Source: Candidatus Hydrogenedentota bacterium
GTDB lineage: Bacteria; Hydrogenedentota; Hydrogenedentia; Hydrogenedentales; JAJRTN01
Assembly: GCA_024278275.1 (NCBI GenBank)
Contig: JAJRTN010000179.1
Coordinates: 1-52,431 of the forward strand
Length of the DNA: 52,431 nucleotides
Reading direction: 5' to 3'
Numbering within the stretch: the first letter of the stretch is position 1; each line of letters opens with the position of its first letter. Of the stretch, positions 21,774 to 31,261 are shown in pieces. The notes below the pieces were generated by a model, which searched no databases, had not been told where the DNA came from, and worked only from the letters and a program-made list of their open reading frames with translations. The translations under genes and the position numbers were made by a program.

Positions 21774-23219
21774 ATGAAGCGAGCACTTCTCATGGCATCA
21801 ATGCTGCTGATTCCCCGCCTGTTGATAGCGCAGGAACTGGATGTGGACGGCCTGTTGGGCCAGGACTGGTATGGCCTGTACTTCAACGGGAAGAAGGCGG
21901 GCTACGCCGTCACCACGCTGGAAAAGGATGACGAGGGCAACGTCACGTCCCGGGAAGATTGCTCGTTCCGCATCAACATGGTGGGGGTTCCCCAGGAGAT
22001 GGAGCTCCATGTGGCCCGTGTCTACGGGCCGGGAGGGGGCTTGAAGTCCATTACTTACGACGTGAGCGATACGCATATCGAGGCCACCGTGCGGGGGGAG
22101 AAGCTGATCCTGGTAACGACCGTGGCCGGCCAGACGCAAACGGAGGAGGTGCCCAAACCGGATGAGTCCCTGGCGGACGCCGTCGAGCATGCCCAGTGGG
22201 TGAAGGGCAAGCCCGCCGAGGGCGATACGATGACCTTTGTTGAATACGACCCGCTCAATCGCACGGAGATCACCGGGCACAGTACTATCGTGGGCATGGA
22301 GGACCGGGTGCTCGACGGGGTGATAACGCGCGTTTACCGCATCGAGACCCGTTTCGACATCATGAACCTCACCAAGGTGAGCTATGTCACCCAGGACGGC
22401 ACCACGCTGGAGGATGTGGTTTCCGGCGTGCTCACCATGCGGCTCGAACCCGAAGACGTGGCCAAGGACGTGAACTACTCCAACGACACTATTGTGTCGA
22501 ACGCCGCCCTTATCGATGCGCCCATCCAGGATGCCCGGACTCGGCCCACCCTGCGTCTCGCCCTGCGTGGTCCCATGGATGACATGCACCGTTTCAATGA
22601 CGGCCGTCAAACCATGCGGGAGACGGACCAGGGGTATGTCCTTTTCGAGAGCAGGCGGCGGAAAGCTGACACGATCCAGCACGCCACGCTGCCGGTCAAG
22701 GACCCCGAGCTGCTTCAGTGGGTCAAGCCGACCGTGCTTGTGCAGAGCGACAACGAGAAAATTGTCGCCAAGGCCCGGGAAATCGTGGGCGACGAGACCG
22801 ATCCCGTGAAGATGTCGCGCTTGCTCTGTAACTGGGTGTACGACCATATGCACACCGCCTTCTCGGCGCGTCTGAGCAACTCCCTCGAAGTCCTCAACAG
22901 CCTGGAAGGCGATTGTACCGAGTACAGCACCCTCTTCATTGGCCTCGTGCGGTCGCTGGGCATCCCGGCACGCGAAGTGGGCGGTCTTATCTATGTGGGC
23001 ACCACGCCCGGCTTTTATTACCACCAATGGGCCAAGGTGTGGGTGGGCGAATGGATCGACGTGGATCCCACCTTCAACCAGCCCCTCGTGGACGTGACCC
23101 ACATCAAGCTTGTCGAGGGCGACCAGTTGCAGATGGCCAAGCTCATCCCCATCATTGGCAAGCTGAAGGTCGAGGTACTCCCCGATGAACCGTCGCCCGG
23201 CGCGGCGGACACCCCATAG
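21774..23219 (+). CDS. exported transglutaminase-like protein
   Basis: 481 residues with a signal peptide (MASMLLIPRLLIAQE). The C-terminal part is a transglutaminase-like papain fold with a complete Cys-His-Asp triad: Cys381 in EGDCTEYSTLF, His417 in YYHQWAKVW and Asp431 in WIDVDPTF. The N-terminal 300 residues are beta-rich (DWYGLYFNGKKAGYAV). Such proteins act as proteases or amidases in the envelope, or are non-catalytic scaffolds. It is 12 bases upstream of the YdbH-like gene, so it may be a functional partner of that envelope system. Confidence 0.88.
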   Translation: MKRALLMASMLLIPRLLIAQELDVDGLLGQDWYGLYFNGKKAGYAVTTLEKDDEGNVTSREDCSFRINMVGVPQEMELHVARVYGPGGGLKSITYDVSDTHIEATVRGEKLILVTTVAGQTQTEEVPKPDESLADAVEHAQWVKGKPAEGDTMTFVEYDPLNRTEITGHSTIVGMEDRVLDGVITRVYRIETRFDIMNLTKVSYVTQDGTTLEDVVSGVLTMRLEPEDVAKDVNYSNDTIVSNAALIDAPIQDARTRPTLRLALRGPMDDMHRFNDGRQTMRETDQGYVLFESRRRKADTIQHATLPVKDPELLQWVKPTVLVQSDNEKIVAKAREIVGDETDPVKMSRLLCNWVYDHMHTAFSARLSNSLEVLNSLEGDCTEYSTLFIGLVRSLGIPAREVGGLIYVGTTPGFYYHQWAKVWVGEWIDVDPTFNQPLVDVTHIKLVEGDQLQMAKLIPIIGKLKVEVLPDEPSPGAADTP

Positions 23220-23231
23220 GAATCAGGCGGC

Positions 23232-26159
23232 ATGGACGGCGATGAAACGTCCTCGAAGCCATCCCGGTGGCGTCGGCGGTTAGGGCGCGCGCTCTGGATG
23301 GGCGCGGCGTGCGCCGTGGTGATGCTCGTCCTGCTCCAGGCCGAAGCCCTGCAGCGGTGGGCCTTCCGTGCCGGGATTAAGACAGCCCTCGGGGCCGAAG
23401 CGGTGGTGCGCGGTATCGCCTTTCCCGACTTCGGCGTGCTTCGTGTGGGTGAACTGACCCTGGGCGACCCCGGCATGCCGCCCGTGGTACGCCTCTCCGG
23501 CCTTTCCATTGAATATACGCCGCGGGGCACGGACGGGCGCTACCTGAAGCGCGTGTCCGTGGACGACCTGTCGCTGACCCTGGACGAAAGGCGGCCGGGC
23601 CAAAGGAACTACGCTTTCCTGCAACGCCTGACGAAGGGGCCGGCATCCAACGGTGATTCCATGCGTTTCACCCCGCCCGAGATCGATATCAGGACCCTTT
23701 CAATCCAGGTCCGGCGTGCCGACTGGTCCGTTCGGGGCGCGGGACTTTCCCTCAATGCCACGGTGTCCGCCATGGATCACCTGTCTTTCGTGTTGAAGAG
23801 CGACCACCTCGACGCGGAATGGACCACGGCCATGCTTCCGGAGCCGGTCTCGTCGACGGGAGCCGTGGAACTGCTTGGCGAACGAACGTCCCGGGGCATG
23901 GACCTGCACGCCGCCCTGCGCCTGCCGGAGGTGGGCCGATTCGATGGCGACGCCCATCTTGGCATGGGACCGGCCGGGCTCGACTTCGAATTAAGCGCGG
24001 TGGACACGGAACTGGCCGAGTCCTTCATCGCCGCGCTCGCCAGTGATCGGCTTGGCACGCCGCTTCGCTTCGAAACCCTCCGCATACCCGGCATCGAATT
24101 GTCCGGGCGCTATGGGCCAAGTGGAATCACCCTGAACACGGCCGAGTTCAACGCGGACGTGGAGGGCCTGCGCGTGGGTGAGGACGAAGCATTGCTCTAC
24201 GCGGGGCGGCTGGGAATCGAAGGCCGCCGCGCCGAGGAAGACCCGGCGGCCATGGACTTCGTGCTTACCCTGGCCGACGGACAGCAGGCGCGTCTCCGTG
24301 CCCGTTTCGCCGGAGGAAGGCCCCCGCTGCAAGCCCGCGTGGATGGCTGGTCACGGGAGGCCCTCATGGCCGCGATGCCGGAGGCATGGCGCGACACCAT
24401 CGTTCCGTGGCTTGGCGGCATCAGGGGGCTTGATGCCGACCTGACCGCGGATCCGGGGGGCGTAGAGGGCCGGGTCATCCTCCGTTGGAATCTTCCCGGC
24501 GAGGCCGCGCCGACAATGGAAGGTACGTGGTCCATGGCGTCTGGTGAAGGCCGCCTTGTGGCACAGGGACTTGATCTCTCCCTCTCGCGGTCCCCCGGAA
24601 AACCGCCCAGGGTCCGAATTGTCCTGGAGGCCTTGCCCGTGGCCCGGTGGTACCAGGGTTTGACCGGGGTTCCCATGCCGGGCGATCTCCAGGGCCTTGT
24701 CACGGGCGAGGCCGTGGCCACGCGAAAGCAGGATGGCGCCTATGCTTTCCGGTCTGCCCTGAGCACGGAGGTCCTGCATGCCATGGGCGCCGACCTTCCC
24801 GCCGGCACCACGCTCACCATGACTTTGGCGTCCACGGCATCGAGTGACCTGCGCCACTGGCAAGGCAACACGGCCACCGCGAAACTGGCCGATGCGGCCA
24901 CCCTGTTCCTGGCGGAAACGTACCTGACCACAAGCCCCCTTCGTCTTACTTCCCAGGTGTCCGCCACCGCCGACCTGCCCGCCTTGGGCACGCTCCTGAA
25001 CCAGGGCGAATGGCGTGGTGAAGCCAAACTGGATGGGAAGCTCACCCTGGCGGAGGGCGTGCTCTCGGGGCCGATCACGGTGATGGGAGAAACCCTGGGC
25101 TACGGGGACTACTTCACGCCTTACGGTGAAGCGATTTCCCTCCGGGCAGACGTGCGCTACCACCTGGCCCAGGGGACCGCCGGGGCGAGCGATGTCCGTC
25201 TGCAACTTGGCGAGGGCACCCGTGCCACGGTGAAGCGTCTGCGCTACCTTGACGGAACGGTAAAACTCGACACGCCGGCCCTGGAGACGGACCTCCAGCC
25301 CGCCGTGTCCAAAGGTTATCTTGACCGGGTAGACGGTCACGCCACCCTCGACATGGATCAACTGGTGGTTTCATCCGGCAGTCTGACGGGAAAAGGTATC
25401 CTGCGCGCCACCATTGCCCGCGCTGTGCTGCCCGGCGGCGTGGCCGTCATCGAAGGGGGGGACGTGAAGGCTGACCTCAGCCTGGCGAATGCCCTCAACG
25501 CCACGGGAAGCCTGGGCTTGGATGCCCTGCTGGCCGGCGGCCTTACGGTGCGCCGGATCACCGCCAAGGCAACGGCAGAAGAGAATGTGCTCCATCTCCG
25601 CGACATCAAGGGAAAGGCCGCGGGAGGAACGATACAAGGGAACATAACCGTCCCGCTTTTGGAGCCGGCCCCGTCCATTACCGTGGATATGACCGTTGAA
25701 GACGCCGATTTGGCGGCCCTTTGTGACGAGTTGGACCTGACCGATGTGCGGCTTACGGGCAAGGCCCGGGGAGAAATACACCTCGAGTACGCCTCGGACG
25801 GTCTGCGCGCCCTTGACGCCGACTTGTCCTGCACGAAAGACTTCACGGTTAACCGTGATCTCATCGAGCGGGCCCTGTTGGCCCAGTTCGTGCAGGACGC
25901 CATCGGCAAGGGTCTTACCCGGCGCGCCCGGCGCATCATCGGCGACGCGCCCCAACGCCCCTTCGATTCCGCCACCGCCACCCTCCGCTACGATGCCGAT
26001 ACCCGGCGCATGGTGGGCACGCTGACATTGAAAAGCCGGCTGCTCGACCTGCCCATCGAGGTCCGGGTCGACCTGGAGGCCATCCTGGAGGTGCTGCGGC
26101 TCAAGCAACGGGGTTTACTCGGTGAATTTGGCGATTCCGCCATGGACGGGGTAGAATAA
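23232..26159 (+). CDS. YdbH/AsmA-like intermembrane lipid-transfer protein
   Basis: 975 residues. A single membrane helix lies at about 20-37 (WMGAACAVVMLVLLQAEAL) after an Arg-rich cytoplasmic start; the rest is one long beta-strand-rich chain, as in AsmA-like proteins that form a groove bridging inner and outer membrane. The C-terminal DUF-like end (ALDADLSCTKDFTVNRDLIE, RRIIGDAPQRPFDSA, TLTLKSRLLDLPIEV) resembles YdbH-type ends. The next gene encodes a YnbE/YdbL-like lipoprotein, the same pairing as E. coli ydbH-ynbE-ydbL, which supports YdbH over TamB or YhdP. Predicted role: phospholipid transport to the outer membrane. Identification rests on architecture and neighbour, not alignment. 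Confidence 0.78.
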   Translation: MDGDETSSKPSRWRRRLGRALWMGAACAVVMLVLLQAEALQRWAFRAGIKTALGAEAVVRGIAFPDFGVLRVGELTLGDPGMPPVVRLSGLSIEYTPRGTDGRYLKRVSVDDLSLTLDERRPGQRNYAFLQRLTKGPASNGDSMRFTPPEIDIRTLSIQVRRADWSVRGAGLSLNATVSAMDHLSFVLKSDHLDAEWTTAMLPEPVSSTGAVELLGERTSRGMDLHAALRLPEVGRFDGDAHLGMGPAGLDFELSAVDTELAESFIAALASDRLGTPLRFETLRIPGIELSGRYGPSGITLNTAEFNADVEGLRVGEDEALLYAGRLGIEGRRAEEDPAAMDFVLTLADGQQARLRARFAGGRPPLQARVDGWSREALMAAMPEAWRDTIVPWLGGIRGLDADLTADPGGVEGRVILRWNLPGEAAPTMEGTWSMASGEGRLVAQGLDLSLSRSPGKPPRVRIVLEALPVARWYQGLTGVPMPGDLQGLVTGEAVATRKQDGAYAFRSALSTEVLHAMGADLPAGTTLTMTLASTASSDLRHWQGNTATAKLADAATLFLAETYLTTSPLRLTSQVSATADLPALGTLLNQGEWRGEAKLDGKLTLAEGVLSGPITVMGETLGYGDYFTPYGEAISLRADVRYHLAQGTAGASDVRLQLGEGTRATVKRLRYLDGTVKLDTPALETDLQPAVSKGYLDRVDGHATLDMDQLVVSSGSLTGKGILRATIARAVLPGGVAVIEGGDVKADLSLANALNATGSLGLDALLAGGLTVRRITAKATAEENVLHLRDIKGKAAGGTIQGNITVPLLEPAPSITVDMTVEDADLAALCDELDLTDVRLTGKARGEIHLEYASDGLRALDADLSCTKDFTVNRDLIERALLAQFVQDAIGKGLTRRARRIIGDAPQRPFDSATATLRYDADTRRMVGTLTLKSRLLDLPIEVRVDLEAILEVLRLKQRGLLGEFGDSAMDGVE

Positions 26160-26384
26160 CGTGAACAAACGGGGCGATAGTTGCGTCCATATAGGTGGTT
26201 ATCGGGAAACCATCCGGCGAGGCTCCCGGACCGCGCACGCATACGTTCGAGATGGCATGAGGCCGGCGTGGCTGACAGGGTGTCTCGAACGTGTTGGTAA
26301 GTATCTGGAGCTATCTGCTTTTGCTATTCGTTCCGGGCAGCACGTAGCGGTGCTGAGTTCCCCGAAATGCTGAAGGAGCTTCCC

Positions 26385-27068
26385 ATGTTGAGAAACGCTT
26401 TGGCCGCACTGTTGATAGTTACCGCCCTGACCGTCCTGGGGTGTAGCGTTATTCGCACGGAACACAAAATCGAGGCCCATATCACCCTCGATATCCGCAT
26501 CGAACAACAAGTAGACGATATCTTTGACTTTGTTGAGGGGGATACCGATGTGCTGCCGGCAATCAAGGGCGCGGAACCCGCATCCTCCCTGTTGGACACG
26601 CTGAACTGGCTGGACCCCTTCCCGGTGGCCCATGCGGCCGAAAACATGAACAGTACCTCGGCCCTGATCACGGAAATCGCCCGGCGATTACGCGACCGGC
26701 ATACGAAGATCGTGGCTGCTAAAACCCAGGGATGCTTTGGCGAGAATAATCGCGGATATCTCGAACTGCGAGACTGCGAGGCCCTCAAGGATGGCGACTT
26801 CAAGAACCAGGTCCAGAAACTTCTCGCCGAGGAAAACAAGGACCGCAAAGCCCTCTACAACGAACTCGCCCGGTTGAACCGGGAAAGCGGCGCCACCGTC
26901 TCCACCATGGAGACCGTGGCCGCCATGAACAAACTCAAACGCGCCGCCAGGGGTGAATGGGTCCAGCTTCCCGTCGCCGGGAAAGACTTCGACCGTGTCA
27001 AGGCGTCTTCTCTCGGCAAGAAACTCGGGACGAAATGCCAGCCGGGCGCCTGGGTGCGGATGCCGTAA
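26385..27068 (+). CDS. lipoprotein resembling YnbE fused to YdbL
   Basis: 227 residues. The leader ends in a lipobox with Cys20 (ALTVLGC), so the protein is lipid-anchored. Residues 21-60 (EHKIEAHITLDIRIEQQVDD) match the small lipoprotein YnbE in character. Residues about 105-227 match YdbL/DUF1318: KTQGCFGENNRGYLEL, then EENKDRKALYNELARLN, then VAAMNKLKRAARGEWVQ. In E. coli YnbE and YdbL are separate proteins that work with YdbH. Here both appear in one chain, joined by about 45 residues. The ATG at 26385 has AAGGAG six bases upstream. It is 225 bases downstream of the YdbH-like gene and probably in its operon. Confidence 0.72.
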   Translation: MLRNALAALLIVTALTVLGCSVIRTEHKIEAHITLDIRIEQQVDDIFDFVEGDTDVLPAIKGAEPASSLLDTLNWLDPFPVAHAAENMNSTSALITEIARRLRDRHTKIVAAKTQGCFGENNRGYLELRDCEALKDGDFKNQVQKLLAEENKDRKALYNELARLNRESGATVSTMETVAAMNKLKRAARGEWVQLPVAGKDFDRVKASSLGKKLGTKCQPGAWVRMP

Positions 27069-28308: not shown

Positions 28309-29463
28309 TCATAACTCAAGGCAAGAGCCCGGTGCGGTAGTTTCGTTCGCCGGGATCGGTGCGGGAGGTGACCCGAAAGGGCCATCCCTACCGCGATCAC
28401 TTATCTGTCCCCACTTTTCCCCGGCCATTTCCCTCATCCGAATGTAATCGGCTAAGAACTTGGTAAACTTCTTCGCCCCTCGGCTTGTCATGTGGCCATA
28501 GTCAAGGAAATCCTTATCATCTAGCCCGCAGTCTGCCGGGAACTCCCAGATTTTCACGTGCGTGTTATTGTTGGCGAGACTTTTGGCGATTCTTACATAT
28601 GTGCTGTAAGCTTTACTGCACTGGGTGACTGTCTTCATGCGCTCCGTGTATTCACTGTGCGTGGGTGGCCGCATAACAAGGACCGCGATGCCACGATTGC
28701 TCATTTCCTCCAACAGACTTTGCCAGCGTATGCGAGCATTTTCGTCGATCCTGAAATTCCGTGTATGACGTAAGCTCATGCGGACCGGCTCGAAGGCGAA
28801 ATCCACGTTTGGGTTGTCCTCAAAGTCCCACTTGTTCGGCCGGGGGACGGGGAACCCTCCGCCCATAGATATGGTATAGCAGCCGCCCAGCCAGTCACGG
28901 AGACTTCGGCGTTCCAGCTGAAATGGCCAGGCAATATCAACGGTCCACTTGAATCGATCGATCCCTTGTACCGAATCAAGTCTCTCACTCGCCGACACCA
29001 GACGGAAGAATCTCGGTGTCGGAAAGGCTTCATGGCCTGCGTTGAAATGCCAACACTCACAATCAATGATAACCAGGTCAACAGAATCTAAAAGGTCGGG
29101 ATTTCGTTCGAGCATCTTGAGCGCATCCCAAGGCCCTCCTTGGTCCACAGCAAGGTTTTGGACTGACGATCTAGGAATGTCCATCTCCTTAGCGAAAAGC
29201 TCGGGCACAATGGAATACCTCATCCTGGAACTGCCGAAGAGCAGTACCCGAGGCGGGACCTCGGTATCCCGAATGAAGTGCTGCTCGACCCCCAGGAATT
29301 GTCGGACGTCATACGGACCAGGAAACTTGTCAAGGACACCCGTGGAAGCAAAAAGGATGAGGCGCACCAAGGCGCAGAAAACCAAGGCCATCATTACGGA
29401 TGCCGCCATCCTGGGTCTTTCTGTAAGCGTATCAAAACTGAAAATAGATGAATGATGTAGCAT
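28309..29463 (-). CDS. membrane-anchored SGNH-hydrolase-like protein, partner of the MBOAT acyltransferase
   Basis: 384 residues. One membrane helix at about 20-40 (ASVMMALVFCALVRLILF), then an SGNH-type domain: VLLFGSSRMRYS with the nucleophile Ser at 78 or 79, and DYGHMTSRGAKKF near the end giving the Asp/His pair. Such proteins accompany MBOAT acyltransferases (AlgI/AlgJ-type, DltB/DltD-type) in O-acetylation of exported polysaccharides. GGGAG lies six bases before the ATG at 29463, so the gene overlaps the MBOAT 3' end by 32 bases. Base composition is visibly less GC-rich than the flanks, suggesting transfer. Confidence 0.75.
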   Translation of the reverse strand: MLHHSSIFSFDTLTERPRMAASVMMALVFCALVRLILFASTGVLDKFPGPYDVRQFLGVEQHFIRDTEVPPRVLLFGSSRMRYSIVPELFAKEMDIPRSSVQNLAVDQGGPWDALKMLERNPDLLDSVDLVIIDCECWHFNAGHEAFPTPRFFRLVSASERLDSVQGIDRFKWTVDIAWPFQLERRSLRDWLGGCYTISMGGGFPVPRPNKWDFEDNPNVDFAFEPVRMSLRHTRNFRIDENARIRWQSLLEEMSNRGIAVLVMRPPTHSEYTERMKTVTQCSKAYSTYVRIAKSLANNNTHVKIWEFPADCGLDDKDFLDYGHMTSRGAKKFTKFLADYIRMREMAGEKWGQISDRGRDGPFGSPPAPIPANETTAPGSCLEL

Positions 29464-30888
29464 CTGATTCTCCCAGGAACGAGACGACAACAAGGGCGGC
29501 GCCATACACGAGACCTTTAACCCAGAGGGGCCACTCTGCGGAGAACGGTGTCTCACGTCTTCCATAATGACAGCTCAAATCCATGAGCAAGGTGACGCAC
29601 CCGAAGAAACCCGTAACAACCAGGAGTTCATAGCGTTCAGCTGAGAAACGGAACGGACTCGTTGAGCTGCCCGCTTGGAGCGAGATGATGCCCCAAAGAT
29701 ATGCCCAAGCCTTCGCGAAAGAGTCAGCACGGAAAAAAATCCACGTCAGGCAAACCAGATGAAACGTCAATAAAGTCATAAGCGCACGGTTGAGAATCGA
29801 GGTAGTAGGATTGGCGACACGAATAATCCCATCTGTCCTGCCTCGTTCTACAAAGAGTTTGTGAATAGAAAGGTATACACCATGCACCCCCCCCAAACAA
29901 CGAACGTCCAACTGGCCCCGTGCCATAGTCCGCCGAGTAACATCGTCAGCATTAGATTCCTGTAGGTATTGAGTCGTCCGTGTCGATTGCCTCCCAGTGG
30001 TATATAGAGGTAATCCTTCAACCATGCGGAAAGTGATATATGCCAGTGCCGCCAAAACGCCGTAATGTTTGTGCTTAGATAGGGCTGTCTGAAGTTGACC
30101 ATGAGGTCGATTCCGAGCAGTTTACTCACCCCGCGTGCGATATTACTATACCCTGCGAAATCACAGTATATTTGGATGGAAAACAGATAAAGTGACATAA
30201 GGAGCGCGGACCAAGCTAAACCATTCGGTGCTTGAAAGGCTTTATCAACATAAGGTGCGACCGAGTCAGCAATGAAAACCTTCTGTATATAGCCTGTTAG
30301 GATAAGCCTTGCCCCATCTGAAATCATCTCATTGTCAACCCTGCGACAGGTGAGAATCTGCGGTAACAAGCGAGTAGAACGTTCGATTGGTCCGGCAACA
30401 AGCTGCGGGAAGTATGCCACGTATAGGGCAAATGACAAAAAATCCCGCGTTGGTTCCGCTTGGCGTCGGTAGATGTCGATCGTATATGACATTGTTTGGA
30501 AGGTATAGAAACTGATCCCTACAGGAAGGACAACGTACAGGACTGGTGAAGAAACCGAGAGACCGAACCGGTCCAGAAATACAGTGAAGCTCTCACAGAA
30601 GAAGTTGAAATACTTAAAGAAACCCAACAGACCTAGGTTGGTACATACACTAAGAGTTAGCCAGAATCGCCTTGCTTGGCTCTGTACTGCTCGGTGGATT
30701 TTTTGCCCGCAGATAAAATCAACTACGGTCGAGATGACGAGCAGTGAAAGAAACCGATAGTCCCAGAATCCGTAGAAGAAGTAACTGGCTGCCAGCAAAA
30801 AGGCATTTTGATACCCTTGCGAGAGGACATAGTACAATAGTAATACGCAAGGCAGAAAAAGAAAAAACTCGAACGAATTGAACAGCAT
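29432..30888 (-). pseudogene. MBOAT-family O-acyltransferase, frameshifted in a G8 tract
   Basis: The first 346 residues from the ATG at 30888 (MLFNSFEFFLFLPCVLLLYY) form a standard AlgI-like MBOAT protein with many membrane helices, the VAYFPQLVAGPIER segment and the catalytic His in FWRHWHISLSAWLKDY. The frame then runs off at WGGCMVYTF. The correct continuation, GVHGVYLSIHKLF and four further hydrophobic segments, is intact in the next frame down to 29432. The join is at eight consecutive G (complement of 29887-29894); nine G would restore one frame. It could be a phase-variable gene, a sequencing error or a recent mutation. Role: moving acetyl groups across the inner membrane to a polysaccharide with the SGNH partner downstream. 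Confidence 0.88.
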
Positions 30889-30920
30889 AACGACCCCCCT
30901 ATTGGGATGATGATCTACTA

Positions 30921-31261
30921 CTACCGCCAACGAAGCAGTGGCGATCTCGAATCGATCATAGTCATAGTGTACCGGCCCTGTTTTTTGGGCACAAGTTTGC
31001 GGTTGGACCGGCTGAATCCCTTGCCGTACTCCATCCTCAGGTCTTTCGCCAGGCGATCGATCAGCCCCGTGCCGTAGGCCGTTTTACCGCTCCGCCCTGC
31101 TCGAACTCCACAATATACCGACCGATCTGCCAATAAGTCCGCACCAGAATCGTGTTGACCGTTTGCCCCGTCCGCCTGCGCCCTTCGGCGAGCAGTGTGC
31201 CGATCTGCTCTTTAAGTACTATGTGTATTTGTTCTGTTCGTGCAAAGAGGTCATTCTTCAC
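30921..31261 (-). pseudogene. remnant of a DUF1016 (YhcG-type) gene
   Basis: From a GTG at 31261 the frame encodes an N-terminal DUF1016-like helical domain: LLAEGRRRTGQTVNTILVRT then YWQIGRYIVEFEQGGAVK. After an A4 run near 31077 the homology jumps frame and continues TAYGTGLIDRLAKDLRMEYG and KGFSRSN. One missing A explains the shift. After GFSRSN the sequence no longer looks like the family, and the C-terminal PDDEXK nuclease domain is absent. It is a decayed, truncated gene. DUF1016 genes are often carried on mobile DNA, consistent with the exchanged character of this region. Confidence 0.7.

Follow-up and report, generated by a model that had tools for sequence, protein, structure and literature searches.

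A conserved single-chain YnbE-YdbL variant encoded beside a YdbH relative in Hydrogenedentota

The route by which phospholipids travel to the outer membrane has long been an open question, and a locus from a Candidatus Hydrogenedentota bacterium raises a narrower one: can the two small partners of a YdbH-type lipid bridge be made as one protein? The window, that is, the whole stretch of DNA analysed here, comprises 52,431 nt of contig JAJRTN010000179.1 (assembly GCA_024278275.1, 5.35 Mb), and in it the gene of a large YdbH-like protein is followed by that of a lipoprotein. In Escherichia coli, YdbH and YnbE, a lipoprotein of the outer membrane, interact with each other (PMC12977461), and strand augmentation by YnbE has been proposed to occur at the YdbH C-terminus (PMC12045153). 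Here we describe a lipoprotein that carries a YnbE-like segment and a YdbL domain in a single chain beside a true YdbH relative, and we conclude that this variant is real and conserved. The locus goes beyond chance because a DUF1318 (YdbL-type) protein is present in 56 of the 60 genomes of the window's order, nearly always in a frame of fused length, and because the order transglutaminase-like gene, ydbH-like gene and lipoprotein gene is found again across the phylum. An earlier note on this DNA had pointed to this three-gene order, which does recur in Hydrogenedentota, with the transglutaminase missing in some relatives. The parts of the locus that carry the argument are the following.

23232-26159, + strand: YdbH-like AsmA-type beta-groove protein, 975 aa
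26385-27068, + strand: single-chain YnbE-YdbL lipoprotein, 227 aa
26385-26441, + strand: signal peptide of the lipoprotein, residues 1-19, cut before Cys20 (from the sequence; Cys20 is invariant in the A1 alignment)
26442-26558, + strand: YnbE-like segment, residues 20-58 (YnbE hidden Markov model, HMM; hhalign against Verrucomicrobia YnbE)
26559-26642, + strand: linker, residues 59-86, ending P78...A82-H83-A84, then A85-E86 (signal-peptidase-I-like motif)
26697-26969, + strand: DUF1318/YdbL domain, residues 105-195 (PF07027)

Two halves of one lipoprotein

The list of open reading frames (ORFs) gives the lipoprotein gene as 26367-27068 (233 aa). The start at 26385 is preferred because an AAGGAG sits 8 nt 5' of it, and the product is thus most likely 227 aa long. 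Its N-terminus reads MLRNALAALLIVTALTVLGC followed by SV, so that the lipobox expected in the protein after the YdbH-like gene is indeed present, with Cys20 and a Ser at +2. According to the E. coli rule, this Ser predicts sorting to the outer membrane.

The C-terminal half is YdbL, as the earlier note had proposed. PF07027 (DUF1318) matches residues 105-195 of the 227 with an E value of 3.6e-14 and 53.5 bits (curated cut-off 27), and the closest solved relative by sequence is E. coli YdbL (PDB 28oj, 2e-4). The predicted model of this domain is confident (predicted local distance difference test, pLDDT, mostly 98), and a Foldseek search with it gave as its sole significant match the same crystal structure (E 5e-4), with a template modelling (TM) score of 0.76 of the target, a root mean square deviation of 2.4 A and 32% identity. 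The domain differs from the E. coli protein by an insertion of ~25 residues within the C-terminal hairpin, which is found in the Hydrogenedentota YdbL domains.

The N-terminal half consists of an alternating stretch (KIEAHITLDIR) followed by an amphipathic one (IEQQVDDIFDFVEG). For its analysis, a YnbE profile was made from standalone YnbEs, defined as small lipoprotein genes directly 5' of an unfused ydbL, with the fused proteins excluded, and it was run against a background drawn from 1.5 Mb of relatives' loci, which supplied 353 distinct lipoprotein-like N-termini. The window lipoprotein scored E 2.2e-4, ranking right behind the true YnbEs and above all N-termini that are not YnbE-like. When the Hydrogenedentota segment was compared with Verrucomicrobia-type YnbE by hhalign, the probability was 88.6 and was equalled in 0 of 200 column shuffles (z ~9), and Verrucomicrobia YnbE in turn matches enterobacterial YnbE at 95.4. 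Membership in the YnbE family thus runs as a chain through Verrucomicrobia, because the Hydrogenedentota segment matches the YnbE of that group and not the enterobacterial subset directly. The claim that the N-terminal half is YnbE-like therefore stands by its match to Verrucomicrobia YnbE, and falls short as regards a direct link to the enterobacterial protein.

Several results weigh against a YnbE identity. The comparison with the enterobacterial subset alone was non-significant (43 of 200 shuffles were as good), Pfam YnbE (PF13617) has no match on the window lipoprotein, the YnbE HMM gives other Hydrogenedentota lipoproteins E values of 0.07 or weaker among the same N-termini, and the monomer model has residues 29-50 as helix and not as strand. 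This missing enterobacterial match, together with the occurrence in the phylum of a second type of DUF1318 lipoprotein without a YnbE-like part, would be accounted for if the segment were not YnbE and the product were a DUF1318 lipoprotein of another function lying beside a general AsmA-like protein. We consider this improbable, as it is opposed by the match to Verrucomicrobia YnbE, by the YdbH-type neighbour gene, by the finding that fused and separate forms exclude each other (both described below) and by an unfused counterpart in the Verrucomicrobia. In that locus (L096; L numbers denote loci of relatives), a standalone protein ...PITINAHVTIDIKGLEKTASSIEDYVSSGK, of the CTVKAVGDPNRPITINAHVTIDIKGLEKTASSIEDYVSSGK type, is followed by a ydbL whose signal peptide is of the usual kind. 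It looks like the unfused state of the very type found in the window, and in the DUF1318 tree it is basal, with weak support, to the large fused group.

A separate ynbE was also looked for. The small + strand ORFs in the gap at 26160-26384 have no lipobox, and a PF13617 profile search of the window's genome gave nothing above the cut-off and no credible site.

A YdbH relative and the distribution of fused and separate forms

The large protein belongs to the YdbH family, as had been supposed. The profile of its own family matches that of gammaproteobacterial (E. coli-type) YdbH with a probability of 96.3 over query columns 710-972, and PF11739 (Pfam YdbH) is matched by 3 of the 24 family members, the best at 1.2e-12. 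The profile match corresponds to window residues 698-962, almost to the C-terminal end, and it is relevant to the YnbE contact because it reaches the end that touches YnbE in E. coli. The best match is thus not to unrelated translocation proteins. On the other side, the 975-aa protein alone has no PF11739 match and nothing convincing in Pfam, E. coli TamB, AsmA and YhdP reached 69, 63 and 3 as single sequences, which are not fully fair competitors of a profile, and the YdbH-like gene lies elsewhere in the genome in two relatives (L041 and L051). In NCBIfam the protein matched only AsmA, weakly (5e-6), and a PF11739 search of the window's own genome gave nothing above the cut-off. Its model (pLDDT 83.8) consists of a helix at residues 13-36, predicted to be an inner-membrane anchor, and then of near-continuous beta structure. 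A Foldseek search of the PDB with this model gave low-TM beta-groove matches (ApoB100, LptD, TamB), which are uninformative past the fold class of lipid-carrying beta structures.

Taken with the comparisons above, the locus probably encodes a YdbH-type inter-membrane lipid bridge in which a single lipoprotein chain contains both the outer-membrane adaptor YnbE and its chaperone YdbL. In this reading, the inner membrane would hold the YdbH-like protein, which would cross the periplasm as a beta-groove, and the lipoprotein, once acylated at Cys20, would go to the outer membrane. By analogy with E. coli, the bridge would transport lipids, and the YnbE-like segment would add as a strand onto the groove at its open C-terminus. 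Kumar and colleagues reportedly proposed in 2024 that YdbL prevents runaway self-assembly of YnbE in E. coli. A YdbL domain supplied in cis, at 1:1, could in the same way act as a chaperone that keeps YnbE from self-addition. As far as we know, a single E. coli study underlies the role proposed for YdbL in the YdbH-YnbE bridge.

The window shares with the E. coli ydbH-ynbE-ydbL cluster its gene order, the homology at the YdbH C-terminus, the YdbL fold, the YnbE-like segment after the lipobox and the outer-membrane sorting signal. In contrast to E. coli, ynbE and ydbL form one gene with an AxA motif in the linker, a transglutaminase-like gene lies upstream and the YdbH-like protein is of very low sequence identity. 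This bridge is probably not the sole one in the genome because TamB is also encoded (1485-aa frame, G000:C126:15789-17453). Another weak AsmA-like match was found at G000:C197:77738-77968.

The fusion is not special to the window's genome. Long DUF1318 lipoproteins were found in Hydrogenedentota, Gamma- and Deltaproteobacteria, Planctomycetota (Scalindua), Acidobacteriota and Tectomicrobia, and outside the window's order an AsmA-like gene lies directly 5' of them in most loci. These upstream proteins in other phyla are mostly without a Pfam YdbH match; by profile they reach 97-98.5 against the Hydrogenedentota YdbH-like family and 87-93 against E. coli-type YdbH. The system is hereby extended to Hydrogenedentota, Planctomycetota, Acidobacteriota and many Gamma- and Deltaproteobacteria, whereas standard databases show mainly a few groups. 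Among 143 gammaproteobacterial genomes, 12 have a separate ynbE (PF13617) and 37 a DUF1318 protein. All 12 gammaproteobacteria with a short DUF1318 frame have the separate ynbE and none of the 25 with a long frame does (Fisher test 5e-10, which ignores relatedness), so that fused and separate forms are mutually exclusive in Gammaproteobacteria. The whole DUF1318 survey comprised 108 fused proteins with the AxA-type architecture, 10 fused without AxA and 57 unfused, and the tree, although poorly resolved, requires at least five switches between the fused and unfused states. A natural fusion that recurs in several phyla, and is exclusive with the two-gene form where this can be counted, provides evidence of its own that YnbE works directly with YdbL in a fixed ratio. 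Our literature search found no description of a YnbE-YdbL fusion; the 2024 PNAS paper on YdbH-YnbE lay outside that search and could mention one.

Two groups of fusions are close enough to the window to be compared in detail. Five Verrucomicrobiota proteins (L125, L130, L135, L141 and L144) are direct fusions, in which a textbook YnbE is joined to YdbL via a short linker, and at the same genomic place other Verrucomicrobia carry unfused ynbE+ydbL pairs (L074, L076 and L096). As in the window, a YnbE-type lipoprotein segment precedes DUF1318, and a large AsmA-like gene lies 5' in the loci that reach far enough (L075, L076 and L096). Unlike the window, the ydbL of the pairs bears a true signal peptide and the direct fusions have no AxA motif. 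The long proteobacterial lipoproteins (CVTINIYFPAAAAEKAADRII... type, CVTINIYFP...) resemble the window in lipobox, N-terminal segment, AxA linker, DUF1318 domain and a YdbH-type gene 5', but the similarity of their N-terminal segment to YnbE is too weak to establish homology.

Within Hydrogenedentota, eight assemblies were checked for a YdbH-like gene, and only one, the metagenome-assembled genome L054 (= G605), has none. In its lipoprotein both the AxA linker and the alternating YnbE stretch have been lost, and the lipoprotein gene is directly preceded by that of the transglutaminase. These losses, seen in a single assembly, are suggestive, being as expected if the YnbE stretch and the AxA linker serve YdbH.

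Other DUF1318 proteins were noted along the way. The second Hydrogenedentota type (CGTIRSFVRIAPDYSALPQEEL...), without a YnbE-like strand or AxA, is found at L250:5578-6156 and also in L251 and L253; in L250 it lies ~2 kb away from the fused gene. A further lipoprotein type (PEVQVTLVDTRTALENQVLGSYKEL...) with a conserved N-terminal part and no AxA was obtained from the Desulfobacterota search (L222, L225 and L226) and from the Planctomycetota search (L197 and L198). In two Planctomycetota loci, L091 (7860-8369) and L190, ydbL has a signal peptide of its own and no ynbE was found 5' of it; in L091 this ydbL lies directly 3' of a 1396-aa AsmA-like gene.

The junction motif and the fate of the chain

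The earlier note suggested that the fusion can tether YdbL to the outer membrane, and it overlooked a motif at the junction, located where unfused YdbL is predicted to lose its signal peptide. In the A3 alignment (36 sequences from Hydrogenedentota, Gamma- and Deltaproteobacteria and Scalindua) the linkers differ in both length and sequence but share a near-invariant end, [A/V]-x-Ala, which is the type of pattern recognized by signal peptidase I. Pro78 is present in 29 of the 36, residue 82 is Ala in 30 and Val in 5, residue 83 is mainly Tyr, His or Trp, Ala84 is found in all 36, and the residue after it is mostly Ala, Gln or Asp. Because of this motif, tethering of YdbL at the outer membrane becomes one possible outcome only, and we regard a whole chain and a chain cut at Ala84 as nearly evenly balanced.

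If signal peptidase I cut after Ala84, the protein would be a polyprotein that yields soluble YdbL and a YnbE lipopeptide of 65 residues. The end products would then not differ from those of E. coli, and the fusion would do no more than fix their ratio and timing. This reading, which we rate as a serious candidate although somewhat below an even chance, draws on the conservation of residues 82 (Ala or Val in 35 of 36) and 84 over several phyla within an otherwise variable linker, and on the frequency of strict AxA (26/31 and 65/73 fused proteins, against shuffled-linker means of 9.3 and 17.2). The residues at -2 (Tyr/His) and +1 (Ala/Gln/Glu/Asp) are typical, and the motif lies 31-33 residues from the domain core, the same spacing as in unfused YdbL (30.5), so that it stands at what would be the equivalent cleavage position of a YdbL that here has no gene of its own. 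The motif also coincides with the least ordered part of the lipoprotein model (lowest confidence at residues 84-88). However, the stretch before it is far less hydrophobic than a true signal peptide, above all in Hydrogenedentota: the best 9-residue Kyte-Doolittle mean before the site is 0.55 there, 1.27 in the proteobacterial type and 2.56 in unfused YdbL. The Verrucomicrobiota fusions, moreover, do without the motif.

The same two observations, the weak hydrophobic stretch and the existence of AxA-less fusions with a classical YnbE, would fit a chain that remains whole, with YdbL held beside YnbE at the outer membrane and the AxA being a relic or having another role. To this outcome we give close to an even chance, although a relic would be expected to decay and Ala84 is invariant over several phyla. 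One alanine would decide between a tethered and a released chaperone. A broader version of the cleavage scenario, in which a polyprotein widespread in several phyla would be cut by signal peptidase I at the AxA to give lipopeptide and soluble chaperone at 1:1, with the two-gene form of E. coli as one alternative, is put forward more tentatively, and we would sooner bet against it. Our literature search for a precedent of a signal-peptidase-cut polyprotein found none.

Neighbouring genes

The three-gene row lies on the + strand, with intergenic gaps of 12 nt and then 225 nt, and begins with the following gene.

21774-23219, + strand: exported transglutaminase/papain-like protein, 481 aa

This exported protein had been named in the earlier note as the head of the operon. 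The gene is real, matching PF01841 (E 1.2e-17) and carrying an export signal (a signal peptide ending in LLIA, followed by QEL), and the triad Cys381, His417 and Asp431 is invariant in 15 aligned sequences. Its position is kept in most relatives and not in all: of the 18 Hydrogenedentota loci of sufficient length, 14 have it directly 5' of the YdbH-like gene and four lack it (L024, L025, L035 and L048). The transglutaminase profile found no relative in the examined loci of other phyla. It is a plausible candidate partner of the bridge.

Elsewhere in the window, a gene for an MBOAT O-acyltransferase (29432-30930, - strand) shows an apparent frameshift split near 29850-30050. Its Pfam match breaks off at position 295 of the 337-position profile and is continued by an overlapping frame, so the split is either a sequencing error or the mark of a pseudogene.

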